64,000 nt of DNA, taken from assembly GCA_024641505.1 (NCBI GenBank), contig JAHECY010000003.1, positions 1 through 64,000 on the forward strand, in the 5' to 3' direction. The notes beneath the pieces were generated by a model. That model saw nothing but the letters and a program-made list of their open reading frames with translations. It did not search any database and was not told the origin of the DNA. This document shows, in pieces, positions 35,798-44,280 of the stretch (position 1 is its first letter; each line of letters starts with the position of its first letter). Source of the stretch: Gammaproteobacteria bacterium. Lineage in GTDB: Bacteria; Pseudomonadota; Gammaproteobacteria; SG8-11. Made by a program: the position numbers and the translations under genes.

Positions 35798-36055
35798 TTA
35801 GCGGCCCACCTGTAGTTTTTTCGCTCGCTGCCATTCTTCCGGCGTGTAGGTCTTGATGGACAAGGCGTGAATGGCGCCTGAGGCGATCTGCTCATTGACT
35901 GTGGCATAGACCAGTTTTTGTTTCTGCAACAGCGACTTACCGGCAAATATCGGTCCGATGACGCTGGCATTGAAATGGCTGCCATCGCCGTCAACGTGGA
36001 CTTCACAGTCCACCAGGCCAGCCTGTATGAGTTTTTCTACATCTTCCGGGTTCAT
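35798..36055 (-). CDS. ibaG: BolA-family iron-sulfur assembly protein IbaG
   Basis: From the ATG at 36055 (AGGGG just ahead) the product has 85 residues; the longer frame begins with GTG. It has a BolA-type fold with V-E-V-H-V-D-G-D-G-S-H-F and the conserved His in A-I-H-A-L-S-I-K-T-Y-T-P-E-E-W. Family members bind [2Fe-2S] clusters with monothiol glutaredoxin. It follows mlaB by 12 bases and is the last gene of the mla operon, as in many gammaproteobacteria. Confidence 0.93.
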   Translation of the reverse strand: MNPEDVEKLIQAGLVDCEVHVDGDGSHFNASVIGPIFAGKSLLQKQKLVYATVNEQIASGAIHALSIKTYTPEEWQRAKKLQVGR

Positions 36056-36067
36056 GATCACCCCTGG

Positions 36068-36370
36068 TTAATTTTGAATTGGCAGAATCTGATCCAAACC
36101 GCTGACTTTTGCAATCGCCAACAGTTGCACCGGCACGTTACGAAACACGATCTCCCGGTTACTGTCCCGGGCGGCGCGCATCCATTCTATCAGAATTGCG
36201 ATACCGGAGCTGTCCGCGCGGGTGACCTTCTGCAAGTCGATGGTCATAACCCCGCTTTCCTTACGGAACAGTGCCAAGGTTTGCTGAATCAACCCGGGGA
36301 CCGTGCCTACATCCAGCTCGCCGGCCACATCGAAGCCGTCCGTCCGCTGCTCGATACCGACACTATTCAT
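36068..36370 (-). CDS. mlaB: STAS-domain protein MlaB
   Basis: MlaB is the cytoplasmic STAS subunit that stabilises the MlaFE ABC transporter. The 100-residue protein has the STAS pattern: G-E-L-D-V-G-T-V, a central I-D-L-Q-K-V-T-R-A-D-S-S-G-I-A-I-L segment, and a short tail. The D-S-S-G segment is the usual phosphorylation-like site region. It overlaps mlaC by eight bases. Confidence 0.88.
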   Translation of the reverse strand: MNSVGIEQRTDGFDVAGELDVGTVPGLIQQTLALFRKESGVMTIDLQKVTRADSSGIAILIEWMRAARDSNREIVFRNVPVQLLAIAKVSGLDQILPIQN

Positions 36371-36980
36371 CCTGAGCCTGCTCGTTGCGGTCCTTGAGCT
36401 TCGTGATCAAGGCATCGACGTCACCCTTGTTGATCTCGGCGCCAAAGGTTGTACGATAGTTCTTCACCATACTGATGCCATCGATGTCCACATCATAGAC
36501 CTTCCAGACACCGTCCTTGAAATACATGTTGTAATTGATCGGCAATGGAAAACCGCCATCCTGGGGAATTTCCGTACGCACGGTGAGATCGTCCGCACCC
36601 TCCGCGGCACGTAACGGCAGATATTCAATTTTTCGGTCCATATTATCGACCAGCGCCTTGGAGTAGGTACGCACCAGCAACCGCTTGAACTCACGCGTAA
36701 ACCTTTCCTTCTGATCCGGCGTCGCCGTGCGCCAGTGCTTACCGAGCACCCAAGCGGCCATTTTATTGAAATCAAAATGCGTAAAGATGATGGCATCCAC
36801 CAGTTCAAACACGCGTTTGTTGTCCTTGGTCACCACTTCCCGCTCGGCGCGCAGGCTGGTAAGGATTTTTTCCGCGGTATCGAACACCAGTTTTTGCGCA
36901 GGATGATCGTCCGCATGTGCCAGAGCACCTACTGACAACCCACCGAACAGCAGCATGCCCATCAGCATCTTCCTGATCAT
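36363..36980 (-). CDS. mlaC: Periplasmic phospholipid carrier MlaC
   Basis: MlaC shuttles phospholipid across the periplasm between the outer-membrane MlaA complex and MlaFEDB. The 205-residue protein has a signal peptide (R-K-M-L-M-G-M-L-L-F-G-G-L-S-V-G-A-L-A-H-A) and Tgt2/MlaC motifs: D-F-N-K-M-A-A-W-V-L-G-K-H-W-R, F-K-R-L-L-V-R-T-Y-S-K-A-L, and W-K-V-Y-D-V-D-I-D-G-I-S-M-V. Its start overlaps the stop of a TolC-family gene by four bases, which is not the usual upstream neighbour. Confidence 0.92.
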   Translation of the reverse strand: MIRKMLMGMLLFGGLSVGALAHADDHPAQKLVFDTAEKILTSLRAEREVVTKDNKRVFELVDAIIFTHFDFNKMAAWVLGKHWRTATPDQKERFTREFKRLLVRTYSKALVDNMDRKIEYLPLRAAEGADDLTVRTEIPQDGGFPLPINYNMYFKDGVWKVYDVDIDGISMVKNYRTTFGAEINKGDVDALITKLKDRNEQAQDE

Positions 36981-38344
36981 TGAATCTCTCCCGTCACTTG
37001 TTTAAGCCTGACCACATTCAGGTTGTAATCGTTGACTGATTTCAGGTATTCGCTATGCGCCAGCACATATCCCTGAAAAGCGCTCATCACCTTGTCGGCC
37101 TGCTCCAACCCGGCTTCGAAGTCCGCATAACTGGCGATCATCCAGCGGCGTCCTGCGCGGCTGGCCTGCGCCATCTCTTCCACCATGGTATGACTGGCTT
37201 GTACCATGTGATATTGCTCCGCCACTTGAAAGGGTATGCCCTGGCGCGCAAACGCGGATTTCTCGACGAGCGCGTCAAGCTCCGACTGCGCCTGCTTGAC
37301 ACGTGCGGGTTGCACGCCGCTGGACCAGTCCCATTTGACTCCGACGATGGGAGTGAGCGCCGCCCAATTAAACGGATCGTAAATATAAGGGTTGTTCAGG
37401 GTATCGCGACCGGGCGTATAGGCGAAACCGCCGGCCAGCCCCATGTAGACATTGGGATTGAATTCGGATTTTTTCGCTTCCACCAGAGACCGGCGCGCCG
37501 ACAAACCCGCCTCCAGTTGCTTCATTTCGGGTCGACTGGTCAGCGCCTTGGAAGTGAGTTGTTTCAAAGTCTGTTTGGGCAGCTCCACCGGCTTGATGCC
37601 GGAGTCGGCGACTTTGAAGTCTTTCTCAAGACCGACACTGGTAAGTGTCTTCAATCCGTCCATGGCGATTTTTTCGTAGCTGTCCGCCTCGGCGATGTAC
37701 CGATTGACCACGGCAACACCCGTTTGCAGGGCAAACAGATCCGATTGCTTGGTGGTACCCGTACCTTTCTCCAGCCAACCCTGCACCAGACCAACGGCGC
37801 TGTTCAAACGACCACGCACATCCTCCAGTAACAAGCGTGTATCCTTGGCCGTCAGATAGCCGTAGTAAGCTCGATGCACGTCATAAACGATCGATGCGCG
37901 CTGCAGGTTCACCTCACCTTCCTGCACCTTGATATTCCCCTCGGCGGCGGCGGTGTAATTTTCTATCTTGCCAAAAGTCGCCAGCGGTTTGATCACGGTA
38001 AACTGCAGATTGTACCAGGGGGTCAGGCCGTTAACGTCGTATCCATCATCACGCATGCTGCTGTTGAGATCGCTGCCGCCGGTACCGCCGCTGCTGCCTT
38101 TCTCGAACATGCCGCCTTTCACCGTCGGCGCCACGCCGATAAAGAAATTGGAACCGTAGATCAGATCATCACTGCCGGTGGCCTCGTCGCGCAGCCCTTT
38201 GGCCGCCTCCACCAGATGCTCGCGCTCTTTGATGCGCGGATCATTCTTGAGCGCCAACTCCACCGCCTGCTCCAGCGACACGCCCTCGGCGCCCGCCAGC
38301 AGCGGTGTGCACAATAGCACGGCGCTTAGCAGATACCTGGTCAT
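36977..38344 (-). CDS. TolC-family outer membrane protein inside the mla operon
   Basis: 455 residues with a signal peptide (T-R-Y-L-L-S-A-V-L-L-C-T-P-L-L-A-G-A) and the duplicated outer-membrane-efflux architecture: V-S-L-E-Q-A-V-E-L-A-L-K-N-D-P near the N-terminus, heptad-rich helices in both halves, and a Ser/Gly-rich insert near residues 85-95 (G-S-S-G-G-T-G-G-S). Overlaps of four bases with mlaD upstream and with mlaC downstream show it belongs to the operon. Standard mla/ttg2 operons are mlaFEDCB without it. It may provide an outer-membrane exit or contact for the Mla complex in place of, or besides, MlaA, which is not in the window. Confidence 0.85.
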   Translation of the reverse strand: MTRYLLSAVLLCTPLLAGAEGVSLEQAVELALKNDPRIKEREHLVEAAKGLRDEATGSDDLIYGSNFFIGVAPTVKGGMFEKGSSGGTGGSDLNSSMRDDGYDVNGLTPWYNLQFTVIKPLATFGKIENYTAAAEGNIKVQEGEVNLQRASIVYDVHRAYYGYLTAKDTRLLLEDVRGRLNSAVGLVQGWLEKGTGTTKQSDLFALQTGVAVVNRYIAEADSYEKIAMDGLKTLTSVGLEKDFKVADSGIKPVELPKQTLKQLTSKALTSRPEMKQLEAGLSARRSLVEAKKSEFNPNVYMGLAGGFAYTPGRDTLNNPYIYDPFNWAALTPIVGVKWDWSSGVQPARVKQAQSELDALVEKSAFARQGIPFQVAEQYHMVQASHTMVEEMAQASRAGRRWMIASYADFEAGLEQADKVMSAFQGYVLAHSEYLKSVNDYNLNVVRLKQVTGEIQ

Positions 38345-38823
38345 TTTCCAGCCCCTTTGTCGGCCTTGTCGGCCTTATCGAACAAGAAAGTCCCGATCAG
38401 ATTTTCGAGCACCATGGCGGATTGGGTCAAACGGATTTTGCTGCCTTCCTTGAGATAGTCTTCCTCGCCACCCGCTTCCAGTCCGATATATTGCTCACCG
38501 AGCAAACCGGCGGTAAAAATACTGGCGGTGGTGTCAACGGGCATATGATTGAATTGCTCCTCGATTTTCATGTGCACGACCGCCTCGTAGGTATCACTGT
38601 CGAAACTGATATCATCAACTCGCCCCACCACGACGCCGGCCATTTTCACCGGCGAGCGCACCTTCAGCCCCCCGATATTTTCGAATTTGGCGGTCACCGC
38701 ATAACCTTCCACGGCGCGAAACGCATTGATGTTGCTGACCTTCATCGACAACATGAACAGAGCGACAATCCCCAAGGCCACAAACAAGCCAACCCATACT
38801 TGAACCGTTCTTGTATGCATCAT
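38341..38823 (-). CDS. mlaD: MCE-domain protein MlaD
   Basis: MlaD forms a hexameric ring in the inner membrane and periplasm that binds phospholipid. The 160-residue protein has one transmembrane helix (V-W-V-G-L-F-V-A-L-G-I-V-A-L-F-M-L) and one MCE domain: F-E-N-I-G-G-L-K-V-R-S-P-V-K-M-A-G-V-V-V-G-R and later G-L-L-G-E-Q-Y-I-G-L-E-A-G-G. The C-terminus is a Lys/Asp repeat (D-K-A-D-K-A-D-K). It overlaps the TolC-family gene by four bases. Confidence 0.94.
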   Translation of the reverse strand: MMHTRTVQVWVGLFVALGIVALFMLSMKVSNINAFRAVEGYAVTAKFENIGGLKVRSPVKMAGVVVGRVDDISFDSDTYEAVVHMKIEEQFNHMPVDTTASIFTAGLLGEQYIGLEAGGEEDYLKEGSKIRLTQSAMVLENLIGTFLFDKADKADKGAGK

Positions 38824-38826
38824 GAT

Positions 38827-39606
38827 TTATTCTCCGAACATGAGCGCAGTGAGCACGAAATCCAGCCCCAACACCGCAAGCGACGAGTGCACCACAGTAC
38901 GGGTGGTGGCACGGCTGACGCCCTCCGAGGTAGGGACACAATCATAACCTTCAAACACGGCGATCCAAGTGACGACAATGCCGAAAGCGAAACTTTTAAT
39001 AATGCCATTGATGATATCTTCATCAATCTCCACACTGGCCTGCATCTGGGACCAGAATGCACCCTCGTCCACGCCCAGCAAACCCACGCCCACGAAGTAG
39101 CCACCCATCACACCGACGGCGCTGAACATGGCAGCGAGCAAGGGCATGGCAATAGCGCCGGCAAGGAAACGCGGCGCCACAACCCGCTGCAGGGGATCCA
39201 CCGCCATCATTTCCATGCCTGACAATTGTTCAGTACTTTTCATTAAACCGATTTCCGCGGTAAGCGCGGAACCGGCGCGCCCGGCGAACAACAAGGCGGT
39301 TACCACCGGCCCCAGCTCCCGCACCAGAGACAGCGCCACCATGACTCCCAATGATTCCTCGGCGCCAAAATCCACCAGGGTATTGTAGCCCTGCAGCCCC
39401 AACACCATACCGACGAACAAACCGGATACCAGAATAATGATCAGCGACAGCACACCGGTGGAAAAAACTTGAGCCAATACCAGATTCGGCCGTAGCGCCA
39501 ACGCCGGAAAGCCCTTAATGGCGTAGTAAATGAATATATGTCCGCGCCCCAGGCGCTCGATGACACCCAGGGTGGCGGCACCCAACTGCTGCAGTTTGTC
39601 CATCAT
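38827..39606 (-). CDS. mlaE: ABC transporter permease MlaE
   Basis: MlaE is the dimeric membrane subunit of the phospholipid transporter. The 259-residue protein has about five to six helices and the MlaE/permease signature [22 protein letters not shown], then the [13 protein letters not shown] motif that contacts the ATPase. It overlaps mlaF by four bases (ATGA). Confidence 0.95.
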
Positions 39607-40418
39607 GGTCGGCTCCCGGTCAACAAATCATCCGCGTAATCCAGCGATGGGTAGTGGAACGGCACCGGCCCATCCGGCAATCCTTCCATGAACTGCTTGA
39701 CCCATGGCGATGAAGACCGCTGTAAGGTTTCCGAAGAACCATGCTCCACGACTTTGCCTTCGGAAATTACATAAATATAGTCGGCGATAGACGCAGTTTC
39801 CTGCACATCATGGGACACCAGAATACTGGTTAAATCCAGGGCATCGTTCAAGGAGCGAATAAGCGTCACCAGCACACCCATGGAAATGGGATCCTGGCCG
39901 GTGAACGGTTCATCAAACATGATCATCATGGGGTCCAGCGCGATCGCCCGTGCCAGTGCCACGCGCCGCGCCATCCCACCGGAAAGCTCACTGGGCATAA
40001 GATCCCGGGCGCCGCGTAAACCCACGGCATGGAGCTTCATCAGCACCAGGTGCCTGATGATGGATTCCGACAGCTTGGTGTGCTCGCGAATCGGAAACGC
40101 GACATTGTCATAGACGTTGATATCGGTGAGCAGGGCGCCACTCTGGAACAACATACCCATGCGTTTACGCAACTCATACAACTGGGAATGCGAGAGCTTA
40201 TGCACATGCTTCCCGTCCACATGGATAGTACCCTGGTCAGGACGCAACTGCCCGCCAATCAGCTTGAGCAAGGTGGTTTTACCGGTACCGCTGGGTCCCA
40301 TAATCGCGGTGATCCGGCCCTTTTGAATATCGATATCCACACCGTCAAAAATTTTACGGTCTCCGCGGGAAAAATGCAGATTGCGTATTTTGACCAACGG
40401 TTCGTCATTTTCTGCCAT
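39603..40418 (-). CDS. mlaF: ABC transporter ATPase MlaF
   Basis: MlaF powers phospholipid movement by the Mla transporter. Over 271 residues: Walker [10 protein letters not shown] near residue 41, Q-loop L-F-Q-S-G-A-L, signature [14 protein letters not shown] typical of MlaF, Walker B M-I-M-F-D-E-P-F and the switch His in V-S-H-D-V. The C-terminal tail ([16 protein letters not shown]) is the part that meets the neighbouring subunit and MlaB. It is the first gene of the operon. Confidence 0.95.
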
Positions 40419-40456: not shown

Positions 40457-41128
40457 CTAAAGCAATTGACTGATCACTGTCGCCTTGCGCATCACATCAA
40501 TATTGGGCGGCCGGCCATCGAAAAAAAGATAACTCTCCTGTGCCACGGCACCGCCCCGGTGCAGGTAACGCTCGATAACCGCGCGTAGCTTCCGATCATC
40601 GGCCACATCGCTTTCCCGTATCCTGCCCACACTGGTGGACATGCCTGTCGACAGGGGACTGGACTGGTCCGGCTGCCAGACGAAATTCACCATATTAAAT
40701 AGGGCAGGATCAGTCAGTGCACCGCCACTATAACCCACAAATACCGGACAACCAAAGCATGCTTGTTTTGTCATTAACCGGTACAGTATTTCCTCATTGG
40801 AAATATCCATTACCACCCCGCCCAGCCCCGCGAGAGGCCAATGTCTCTGTTTCATGAGTGCCTCGAACAGCTCCAATGACGCACTATCCGCCACCTGGTA
40901 ATGCAAAAACAAACGGAAGTCTGCACCGACCTCTTCAAGCCACGCCTGGCATTCGTCAAATGAACTCTGCTGCCATTGAGTTTGGGGAACCAGAACCGTG
41001 AGGAATTCATTGGCATAATACGCCAACTGCCAGTCATCAGGCAGATCCTCGGGATAGAAGGCGTTGCGCCAGCGCTGATGACGCCAACCACACGCGCCGA
41101 TGACCGGTTGCGGATAGGACTTCTTCAT
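40457..41128 (-). CDS. DUF72-like protein, shortened
   Basis: From the ATG at 41128 (AAGGA nine bases ahead; an ATG at 41137 is too close to that site) the product has 223 residues. The N-terminus I-G-A-C-G-W-R-H-Q-R-W-R-N-A-F-Y-P-E-D-L-P resembles DUF72/YecE proteins, which have a TIM-barrel-like fold, but the usual downstream motifs are weak and the protein is shorter than the typical 240-280. The function of the family is unknown. It lies 39 bases upstream of mlaF on the same strand and may share its transcript. Confidence 0.55.
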   Translation of the reverse strand: MKKSYPQPVIGACGWRHQRWRNAFYPEDLPDDWQLAYYANEFLTVLVPQTQWQQSSFDECQAWLEEVGADFRLFLHYQVADSASLELFEALMKQRHWPLAGLGGVVMDISNEEILYRLMTKQACFGCPVFVGYSGGALTDPALFNMVNFVWQPDQSSPLSTGMSTSVGRIRESDVADDRKLRAVIERYLHRGGAVAQESYLFFDGRPPNIDVMRKATVISQLL

Positions 41129-41137
41129 CTGATCCAT

Positions 41138-42537: not shown

Positions 42538-44280
42538 ATGTTTCGCATTCGAAAAATTCACGATAATGTCGCCCAGGCGGATCAGGATGCGATACAGCAG
42601 GTACTGGACATTCTGCGCGTGCAGTTCCCCAAGGCGCGCAAGGAAGATTTCAAGCGTTTACCGCAGCAATTGCATGATCCGCTCACCTATCGTTACCGCT
42701 CGATTCTGTTCGTGGCGGAAGACGGCAACGGCGCCATCAAGGGTTTCGCCATGTTGCTGCATTTTTCCGATCTCGGCGCCTGTTATCTGGAATTGATTTC
42801 CGCGGCCCCTGGACGTACCAGCGGCGGCATCGGCGGCGCGCTTTACGAACGTCTTCGGGAAGAAGCGCAGCAGTTGAAAGCCTTTGGTTTATTCTTTGAA
42901 TGCAGCGTCGACGACCCCAATGTCGTACTCGACGCGAAAACCCTGGATCAAAACAAGGCGCGACTGAAATTCTATGAACGCTACGGCGTGCGACCGATCG
43001 TCAATAATGTGTATGCCTCGCCGGTCAACCCCGGCGACCAGGACCTTTACTATCTACTTTACGACGCCTTGGGCACCGGTTCGCCCCTGCGCCGCGAGAA
43101 ATTGCATAAGGTGGTGCGCGCGGTTCTGGAACGGAAATACGGCGAGCTGATCCCTAGAACCCAGATCGAGGAAGTGGTCAATTCTTTCATGGATGATCCG
43201 GCGCTATTGCGCCCTCTGCAGTATCAGCGCAAAGCCGTGGCCGCCACCATCTCCGCTTCCGCCGCCGGGTCCATCGCCCTGGTGGTCAACGAAGGTCACA
43301 GCATTCACCATGTGAAAGCCCGCGGCTACGTGGAAGCGCCGGTGCGCCTACCGAATATCCTGATGGAATTACACAAAAGCGGTTTATTCACCCGCATCAA
43401 TCCCCGCCACTTGGGCAAAAAATACCTCAGCTCGGTACACGATCCCAACTACGTGGATTACCTGCGCCGCGCCTGCCATCAGCTCCCGGAGGGTAAGTCC
43501 ATCTACCCCATCATTTTTCCGATTCGCAACTTACTGCGCCCACCCAAGGACATAGAGCTGATGGTGGGCTACTACTGCATGGACACCTTCACACCCCTCA
43601 ACAAGAATGCTTACCTGGCGGCCTTGGGCGCGGTGGATTGCGCGGTCACCGCCGCCGAAACCCTGCATCATGGATACCGTATTAGCTACGCCCTGGTGCG
43701 GCCCCCGGGTCATCATGCGGAGCGCCGCGCTTTCGGCGGCTTTTGCTATTTCAATTCCGCCGCCGTCGCTGCCCATTACCTAAGCCGCTTCGGCACGGTG
43801 GCAGTGCTGGATGTCGATTTTCACCACGGTAACGGCACCCAGAATATTTTCTATGAACGTGCCGACGTACTCACCGTATCCATACACGGCGCCCCGCATT
43901 TCGCCTACCCGCACTTCTCCGGCTTTACCGATGAAATCGGTATTGGTCCAGGACAGGGTTTCAATATTAACTATCCGTTACCGGAAAAAATCACGCCCGA
44001 GCAATATCGCAAAACCCTGGCCAAAGCCTTGCGCGTCATCAAACGGTTCGCACCCCGGTATCTGGTGCTGTGCCTTGGACTAGACACCGCCAAAGCCGAC
44101 CCCACCGGCACCTGGACCTTGGGCGGAGAAGATTTTTTTGAAAATGGCGCAATGATTGGCAAGATCGGTCTGCCGACGGTAATCGTGCAGGAAGGCGGCT
44201 ATCGCACCAGCACTTTGGGCGCCAATGCACGCCGATTCTTCGAAGGCTTCTGGCAGGGCAGCAGTACGCATAAGCGGTAA
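42538..44280 (+). CDS. GNAT acetyltransferase-HDAC deacetylase fusion
   Basis: 580 residues with two opposed activities. Residues 1-175 are a GNAT-like acyltransferase domain with the acetyl-CoA loop region (G-R-T-S-G-G-I-G-G-A-L-Y) and the late A-R-L-K-F-Y-E-R-Y-G. Residues about 245-575 are an HDAC-like amidohydrolase: R-P-P-G-H-H-A (His392-393), the zinc ligands in V-L-D-V-D-F-H-H-G-N-G-T-Q (Asp427, His429), Asp516 in G-L-D-T-A-K-A-D-P, and Tyr555 in G-G-Y. All HDAC catalytic residues are present. HDAC relatives in bacteria act on acetylpolyamines, acetoin-type metabolites or acetyl-lysine. The fusion suggests reversible acetylation of one substrate. The substrate is unknown. Confidence 0.85.
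   Translation: MFRIRKIHDNVAQADQDAIQQVLDILRVQFPKARKEDFKRLPQQLHDPLTYRYRSILFVAEDGNGAIKGFAMLLHFSDLGACYLELISAAPGRTSGGIGGALYERLREEAQQLKAFGLFFECSVDDPNVVLDAKTLDQNKARLKFYERYGVRPIVNNVYASPVNPGDQDLYYLLYDALGTGSPLRREKLHKVVRAVLERKYGELIPRTQIEEVVNSFMDDPALLRPLQYQRKAVAATISASAAGSIALVVNEGHSIHHVKARGYVEAPVRLPNILMELHKSGLFTRINPRHLGKKYLSSVHDPNYVDYLRRACHQLPEGKSIYPIIFPIRNLLRPPKDIELMVGYYCMDTFTPLNKNAYLAALGAVDCAVTAAETLHHGYRISYALVRPPGHHAERRAFGGFCYFNSAAVAAHYLSRFGTVAVLDVDFHHGNGTQNIFYERADVLTVSIHGAPHFAYPHFSGFTDEIGIGPGQGFNINYPLPEKITPEQYRKTLAKALRVIKRFAPRYLVLCLGLDTAKADPTGTWTLGGEDFFENGAMIGKIGLPTVIVQEGGYRTSTLGANARRFFEGFWQGSSTHKR

Follow-up and report, generated by a model that had tools for sequence, protein, structure and literature searches.

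A TolC-type gene between mlaD and mlaC as the probable counterpart of MlaA in a variant Mla phospholipid-transport system

Introduction

Why should a gene for a TolC-type outer-membrane protein be embedded in an operon for phospholipid transport? The question is posed by a gammaproteobacterial locus on contig JAHECY010000003.1 (assembly GCA_024641505.1), of which the first 64,000 nucleotides constitute the window, i.e., the whole stretch of DNA analyzed here. MlaA is regarded as the protein with which the periplasmic carrier MlaC works at the outer membrane, and both the lipid exchange at that site and its direction are still debated. A sequence-only reading of the window had suggested that the TolC-type gene is an integral member of a variant Mla system, which would serve as an alternative route for lipid or in lipid-linked efflux. 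We examined its operon context, predicted fold, phyletic distribution and relationship to MlaA, and propose that its product probably takes the place of MlaA.

Gene neighborhood and operon organization

Profile searches recover in the window a set comprising MlaE, a MlaD with a single MCE domain, MlaF, MlaC and MlaB, with the TolC-type gene situated between mlaD and mlaC on the minus strand:

39603-40418, minus strand: mlaF, ATPase; top NCBIfam match PRK11831 MlaF at 413 bits, slightly below the cut-off of 441
38827-39606, minus strand: mlaE, permease; NF033619 at 421 bits (cut-off 315)
38341-38823, minus strand: mlaD, 160 aa, short type without a C-terminal beta-barrel domain; TIGR04430 at 190 bits (cut-off 135) and PF02470
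36977-38344, minus strand: TolC-type outer-membrane factor, 455 aa, ATG start; PF02321 at E 2.6e-31 over two stretches; on fold and orthology, the proposed outer-membrane station of an Mla variant
38027-38125, minus strand: surface loop 1 of the TolC-type protein (residues 74-106), including a Gly/Ser stretch (residues 84-94)
36363-36980, minus strand: mlaC, periplasmic phospholipid carrier and, on the proposal made here, the TolC-type protein's direct partner; PF05494 at E 6e-52
36068-36370, minus strand: STAS-domain gene in the MlaB position; PF13466 at E 8e-17, with NF033618 (mlaB) below its cut-off
35798-36061, minus strand: bolA/ibaG-like gene; PF01722; same position as ibaG in E. coli
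34133-35395, minus strand: murA; PF00275; same position as murA in E. coli

The four-base overlaps that the sequence-only reading had pointed out are present at both junctions, with mlaD at 38341-38344 and with mlaC at 36977-36980, and each reads ATGA on the coding strand. No gene for an adaptor of the HlyD/MFP type was seen in the mla-tolC operon or adjoining it, though a distant one is possible, and the genome encodes further OEP genes apart from the mla-linked one. These points bear on a reading in which the TolC-type protein is the exit duct for efflux or secretion of, for example, hydrophobic compounds, driven by MlaFED or another pump. Such a role would be in keeping with a fold and family typical of efflux and type I secretion ducts, and with the name Ttg2, for toluene tolerance, given to the Mla homologues of Pseudomonas. 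However, the operon has no adaptor gene, the other OEP genes are available for such work, and neither the exclusion of MlaA nor the persistence of TolC with MlaC without MlaFED, both described below, would be explained. We regard it as improbable; the suggestion of lipid-linked efflux in particular finds no support, because an adaptor gene is missing and TolC stays with MlaC where the MCE and ABC genes have been lost.

The gene directly upstream of mlaF (window 40457-41137, minus strand) has a DUF72-like look, below the Pfam limit; at the equivalent place in relatives there are matches to PF01904 (L065, 7612-8319; L072, 2517-3194). The window also codes on the plus strand (42538-44280) for a 580-aa protein in which a GNAT acetyltransferase domain is fused to a histone-deacetylase-type domain.

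The mla-linked proteins as a distinct TolC-type family

The two OEP stretches of the protein score 109 bits with PF02321, for which the cut-off is 22. An AlphaFold2 model built from 31 orthologues (pLDDT 85.9) predicts four strands (residues 62-73, 107-122, 298-309 and 327-337) and four long helices (126-193, 200-235, 344-410 and 416-451). Foldseek matches it to TolC, OprN, OprM and CusC with a probability of 1.00, TM values of about 0.7-0.8 and identities of 13-16%, the E-values being 5.7e-18 against a TolC model and 3.7e-15 against 1ek9. While the fold search yielded these matches, a sequence search of the PDB returned no useful relative, and the plasmid collection gave solely distant TolC-family matches at 22-23% identity. 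By its predicted fold, then, the mla-linked protein is a TolC-type factor, yet it belongs to a separate sequence family.

Conservation within this family is strongest at the lower end of helix 7 and at the second periplasmic tip (RRWMIxxYADFEAG), a pattern at the periplasmic end that would suit the docking of a partner there. The family has no conserved lipidation Cys.

The Gly/Ser stretch, which had been singled out as an unusual insert, is real, and we reject it as a special feature: with pLDDT below 50 and predicted disorder, it lies in an ordinary variable surface loop that spans 18-33 residues among homologues. A Cys pair occurs in this loop in 20 of 38 homologues, the mature protein being otherwise nearly Cys-free.

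Phyletic distribution and gene order

A search of 369 genomes of the class with a limit of E 1e-30 detected TolC-type orthologues in 45 of them, representing 20 families; all matches reached at least E 1e-91, the interval from there to 1e-30 being empty in these genomes. The mla operons of relatives thus do carry the gene, which makes up a conserved orthologous family. The order mlaF-E-D-tolC-mlaC is kept in nearly all the fetched loci, often with the same four-base overlaps, and is usually followed within the class by mlaB, bolA and murA; in one genome (G195), two genes intervene between mlaD and tolC. Beyond the class, mlaFED-tolC-mlaC was encountered in three genomes (G374, G414 and G452) with a TolC identity of about 30%, and the gene is rare in the class of G414 (2 of 66 genomes). 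Such conservation, in other classes as well as in 20 of the families sampled within the class, puts the arrangement far beyond chance.

Several of these loci have additional neighbors. The yhdP family is implicated in phospholipid transport, and a yhdP-like gene (PF13116, E 3.4e-24) directly follows mlaFED-tolC-mlaC in G452 (L059, 7840-10902, plus strand). In several relatives, a pair of genes for an ABC-2 transporter (ATPase and permease) is found directly downstream of mlaB or mlaC (L062, 3424-5123, minus strand, and similarly in L066, L067 and L122), preceding bolA and murA in L066.

Near-exclusion of MlaA

When the same 369 genomes were screened with PF04333, MlaA was detected in 293. Cross-tabulation gave 41 genomes with only the TolC-type gene, 289 with only MlaA, 4 with both and 35 with neither; hence, MlaA is present in 4 of the 45 TolC-positive genomes as against 289 of the 324 TolC-negative ones, and the two co-occur in 4 genomes where about 36 would be expected (Fisher p 1e-28). 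In 16 of the 20 TolC-positive families, MlaA is missing from every member that carries the TolC-type gene. This absence is not an assembly gap, since it extends to TolC-positive genomes assembled in one or two contigs (G038, G237, G264 and G350).

The genome of the window is itself one of the four exceptions: it encodes a stand-alone mlaA on another contig (G000:C122:10226-10810, E 5.7e-77), as the expectation of an mlaA elsewhere in the genome had it. There is no sign that this contig is a contaminant, its G+C content being 56.3% against 55.6% in the window, which is a weak test. A stand-alone mlaA likewise accompanies the TolC-type gene in G127 and G195, and also in G003, which lies outside the sample. 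The two proteins can therefore coexist, as they do in the window's genome, G127 and G195, which counts against the replacement of MlaA proposed below. In the remaining exception, G086, mlaA belongs to a separate complete mla operon.

That second operon of G086 also belongs to a group of loci (with L079, L080, L127, L135/L146 and G299) in which the slot between mlaD and mlaC, filled elsewhere by the TolC-type gene, is occupied by mlaA. G299 has the mlaD-mlaA-mlaC form, and G078 and G200, of the same family, carry TolC. Among the 35 genomes with neither gene, about 14 still hold an intact MlaC, many of the assemblies being fragmented; thus, either other solutions or assembly gaps exist.

On a tree of MlaE, the TolC state changes approximately six times, mostly on weakly supported branches, and hence independent swaps can be counted only roughly; an independent-pairs test on the same tree found too few supported pairs to have any power. 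The anti-correlation thus reflects shared ancestry in part. It is on this ground that one might take the TolC-type gene for a passenger of an ancient operon, functionally unconnected to Mla, with MlaA lost from the same lineages for other reasons, as a few evolutionary events could account for most of the pattern. Against this stand the retention of gene order at 30% identity in other classes, the swap to the MlaA form inside a TolC-positive family in G299, and a tolC-mlaC pair that outlives the loss of the remaining operon (see below). We accordingly hold the passenger reading to be very improbable. Rather, conservation, synteny and the anti-correlation with MlaA strongly support the earlier suggestion of a variant Mla system with the TolC-type protein as an integral member.

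The TolC-MlaC pair

Two genomes, G260 and G348, have kept tolC-mlaC with its four-base overlap beside murA, while mlaFED is missing from the locus; searches of both whole genomes found no MlaE, MCE domain or MlaA. Both genes are intact in the two genomes and share 66% protein identity while synonymous sites are saturated, which indicates that they have been maintained. Judging from these sequences, TolC and MlaC seem to function together. In E. coli, MlaC contacts MlaA (PMC10245069, PMC10719372), and the retention of TolC with MlaC is hence what a replacement of MlaA predicts. G003 (L065) resembles them, in that a deletion appears to have removed mlaFED and mlaB from between tolC-mlaC-bolA-murA and the DUF72-like gene, but its assembly is only 68% complete.

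An alternative inner partner for TolC would be MlaD. MlaD forms hexamers in E. coli, and the ends of TolC have pseudo-sixfold symmetry, so that a TolC trimer might dock directly on an MlaD hexamer and give an unbroken conduit across the envelope, in which MlaC would have a loading or accessory role. The adjoining and often overlapping mlaD and tolC genes would suit such a conduit, as would the precedent of long MlaD and PqiB-type proteins that span the envelope in other systems (PMC10665443, PMC12436622). We nevertheless judge it unlikely: the MlaD proteins of TolC-positive operons show no gain in length (149-166 aa vs 153-169) and hence no sign of an added docking part; two genes separate mlaD from tolC in G195; and TolC stays with MlaC where every MCE protein is lost.

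Two further comparisons were made. With MlaE controlled for, TolC distances give a partial r of 0.41 with those of MlaC and 0.33 with those of MlaD, a difference too small to weigh. Among the known contact residues of MlaC toward MlaA or MlaD, the position equivalent to I130 of E. coli carries an acidic residue in 27 of 35 TolC-type MlaC proteins and seldom does so in others; lineage effects, and a numbering of K84 that is off by one residue, leave this as a hint only.

Proposed function

Taking these strands together, we consider it probable that the TolC-type protein stands in for MlaA at the outer-membrane end of the Mla system, exchanging phospholipid with MlaC. MlaFEDB would have its usual role at the inner membrane, with MlaC ferrying phospholipid through the periplasm; a TolC-type trimeric factor would form the outer-membrane component instead of MlaA and a porin. 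A separate outer-membrane part is needed, since MlaD is of the short type without a barrel of its own. MlaC would dock on the TolC-type protein at the outer membrane, the conserved periplasmic end of that protein being the likeliest site, and lipid would be exchanged there. We infer this contact, the entry or exit of lipid at the outer membrane, and with them the direction of transport. Counting against a lipid path through or along the protein is the fact that the TolC ducts of known systems carry drugs and proteins. As for the alternative lipid route of the sequence-only reading, the variant system stands, but the gene appears to replace MlaA and not to add a route.

The pairs in G260 and G348 also raise a bolder, tentative possibility to which we give decidedly less credence: TolC and MlaC might be an outer-membrane lipid-transfer machine in their own right, working without an MCE protein or ABC transporter, with the TolC-type trimer as lipid channel or scaffold and MlaFEDB as merely one of several possible inner-membrane partners.

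Should the replacement of MlaA hold, about one in eight of the sampled genomes of the class would possess a second outer-membrane solution for the Mla pathway, TolC-type proteins would acquire a role in lipid transport, and a comparison of MlaC proteins of both types would offer a direct way to what MlaC needs at the outer membrane.

Comparison with known systems

The canonical Mla system of E. coli K-12 shares this gene order (murA-ibaG-mlaB-mlaC-mlaD-mlaE-mlaF), and the MlaE and MlaD of the window pass the curated cut-offs. Relative to mlaFEDCB of E. coli, the TolC-type gene has been added cleanly between mlaD and mlaC; and unlike E. coli, where mlaA is at another locus, most genomes with this gene have no MlaA. 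Beta- and gammaproteobacterial mla operons with an internal mlaA (e.g., Neisseria; PMC5561183) likewise encode the outer-membrane component in the operon, that component being the MlaA lipoprotein and not a TolC-type channel. In the part of that survey of MCE neighborhoods considered here, TolC is mentioned solely as a membrane marker. The TolC/OprM-type factors of efflux and type I secretion share the fold of four strands and long helices, whereas the mla-linked protein has no adaptor or pump gene, forms a strongly conserved family of its own and has Mla genes as partners. Brucella Mpc, a Mla-Pqi chimera (PMC12436622), is also an Mla variant in which another component takes over from MlaA at the outer membrane; it differs in having a PqiC-like lipoprotein and a needle-type MlaD relative and in lacking MlaC.

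In the open-access literature, with subscription papers and preprints mostly outside the scope of the search, we found no report of a TolC-type substitute for MlaA in Mla. The nearest published report concerns the mlaEFD-tolC-tamB cluster of Veillonella parvula. As described in the part of that report considered here (PMC10665443), the gene next after the MCE/ABC genes is a tolC homologue, MlaA is absent, the proposed envelope bridge is a long MlaD that carries a beta-barrel of its own, and TolC is assigned no role but served as a localization control. The AsmA-like tamB beside that cluster parallels the yhdP-like gene of G452; the system of the window differs in having MlaC and a short MlaD of 160 aa, and the likeness of the two TolCs is one of gene position. 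The near-exclusion of mlaA by the TolC-type gene is new here.
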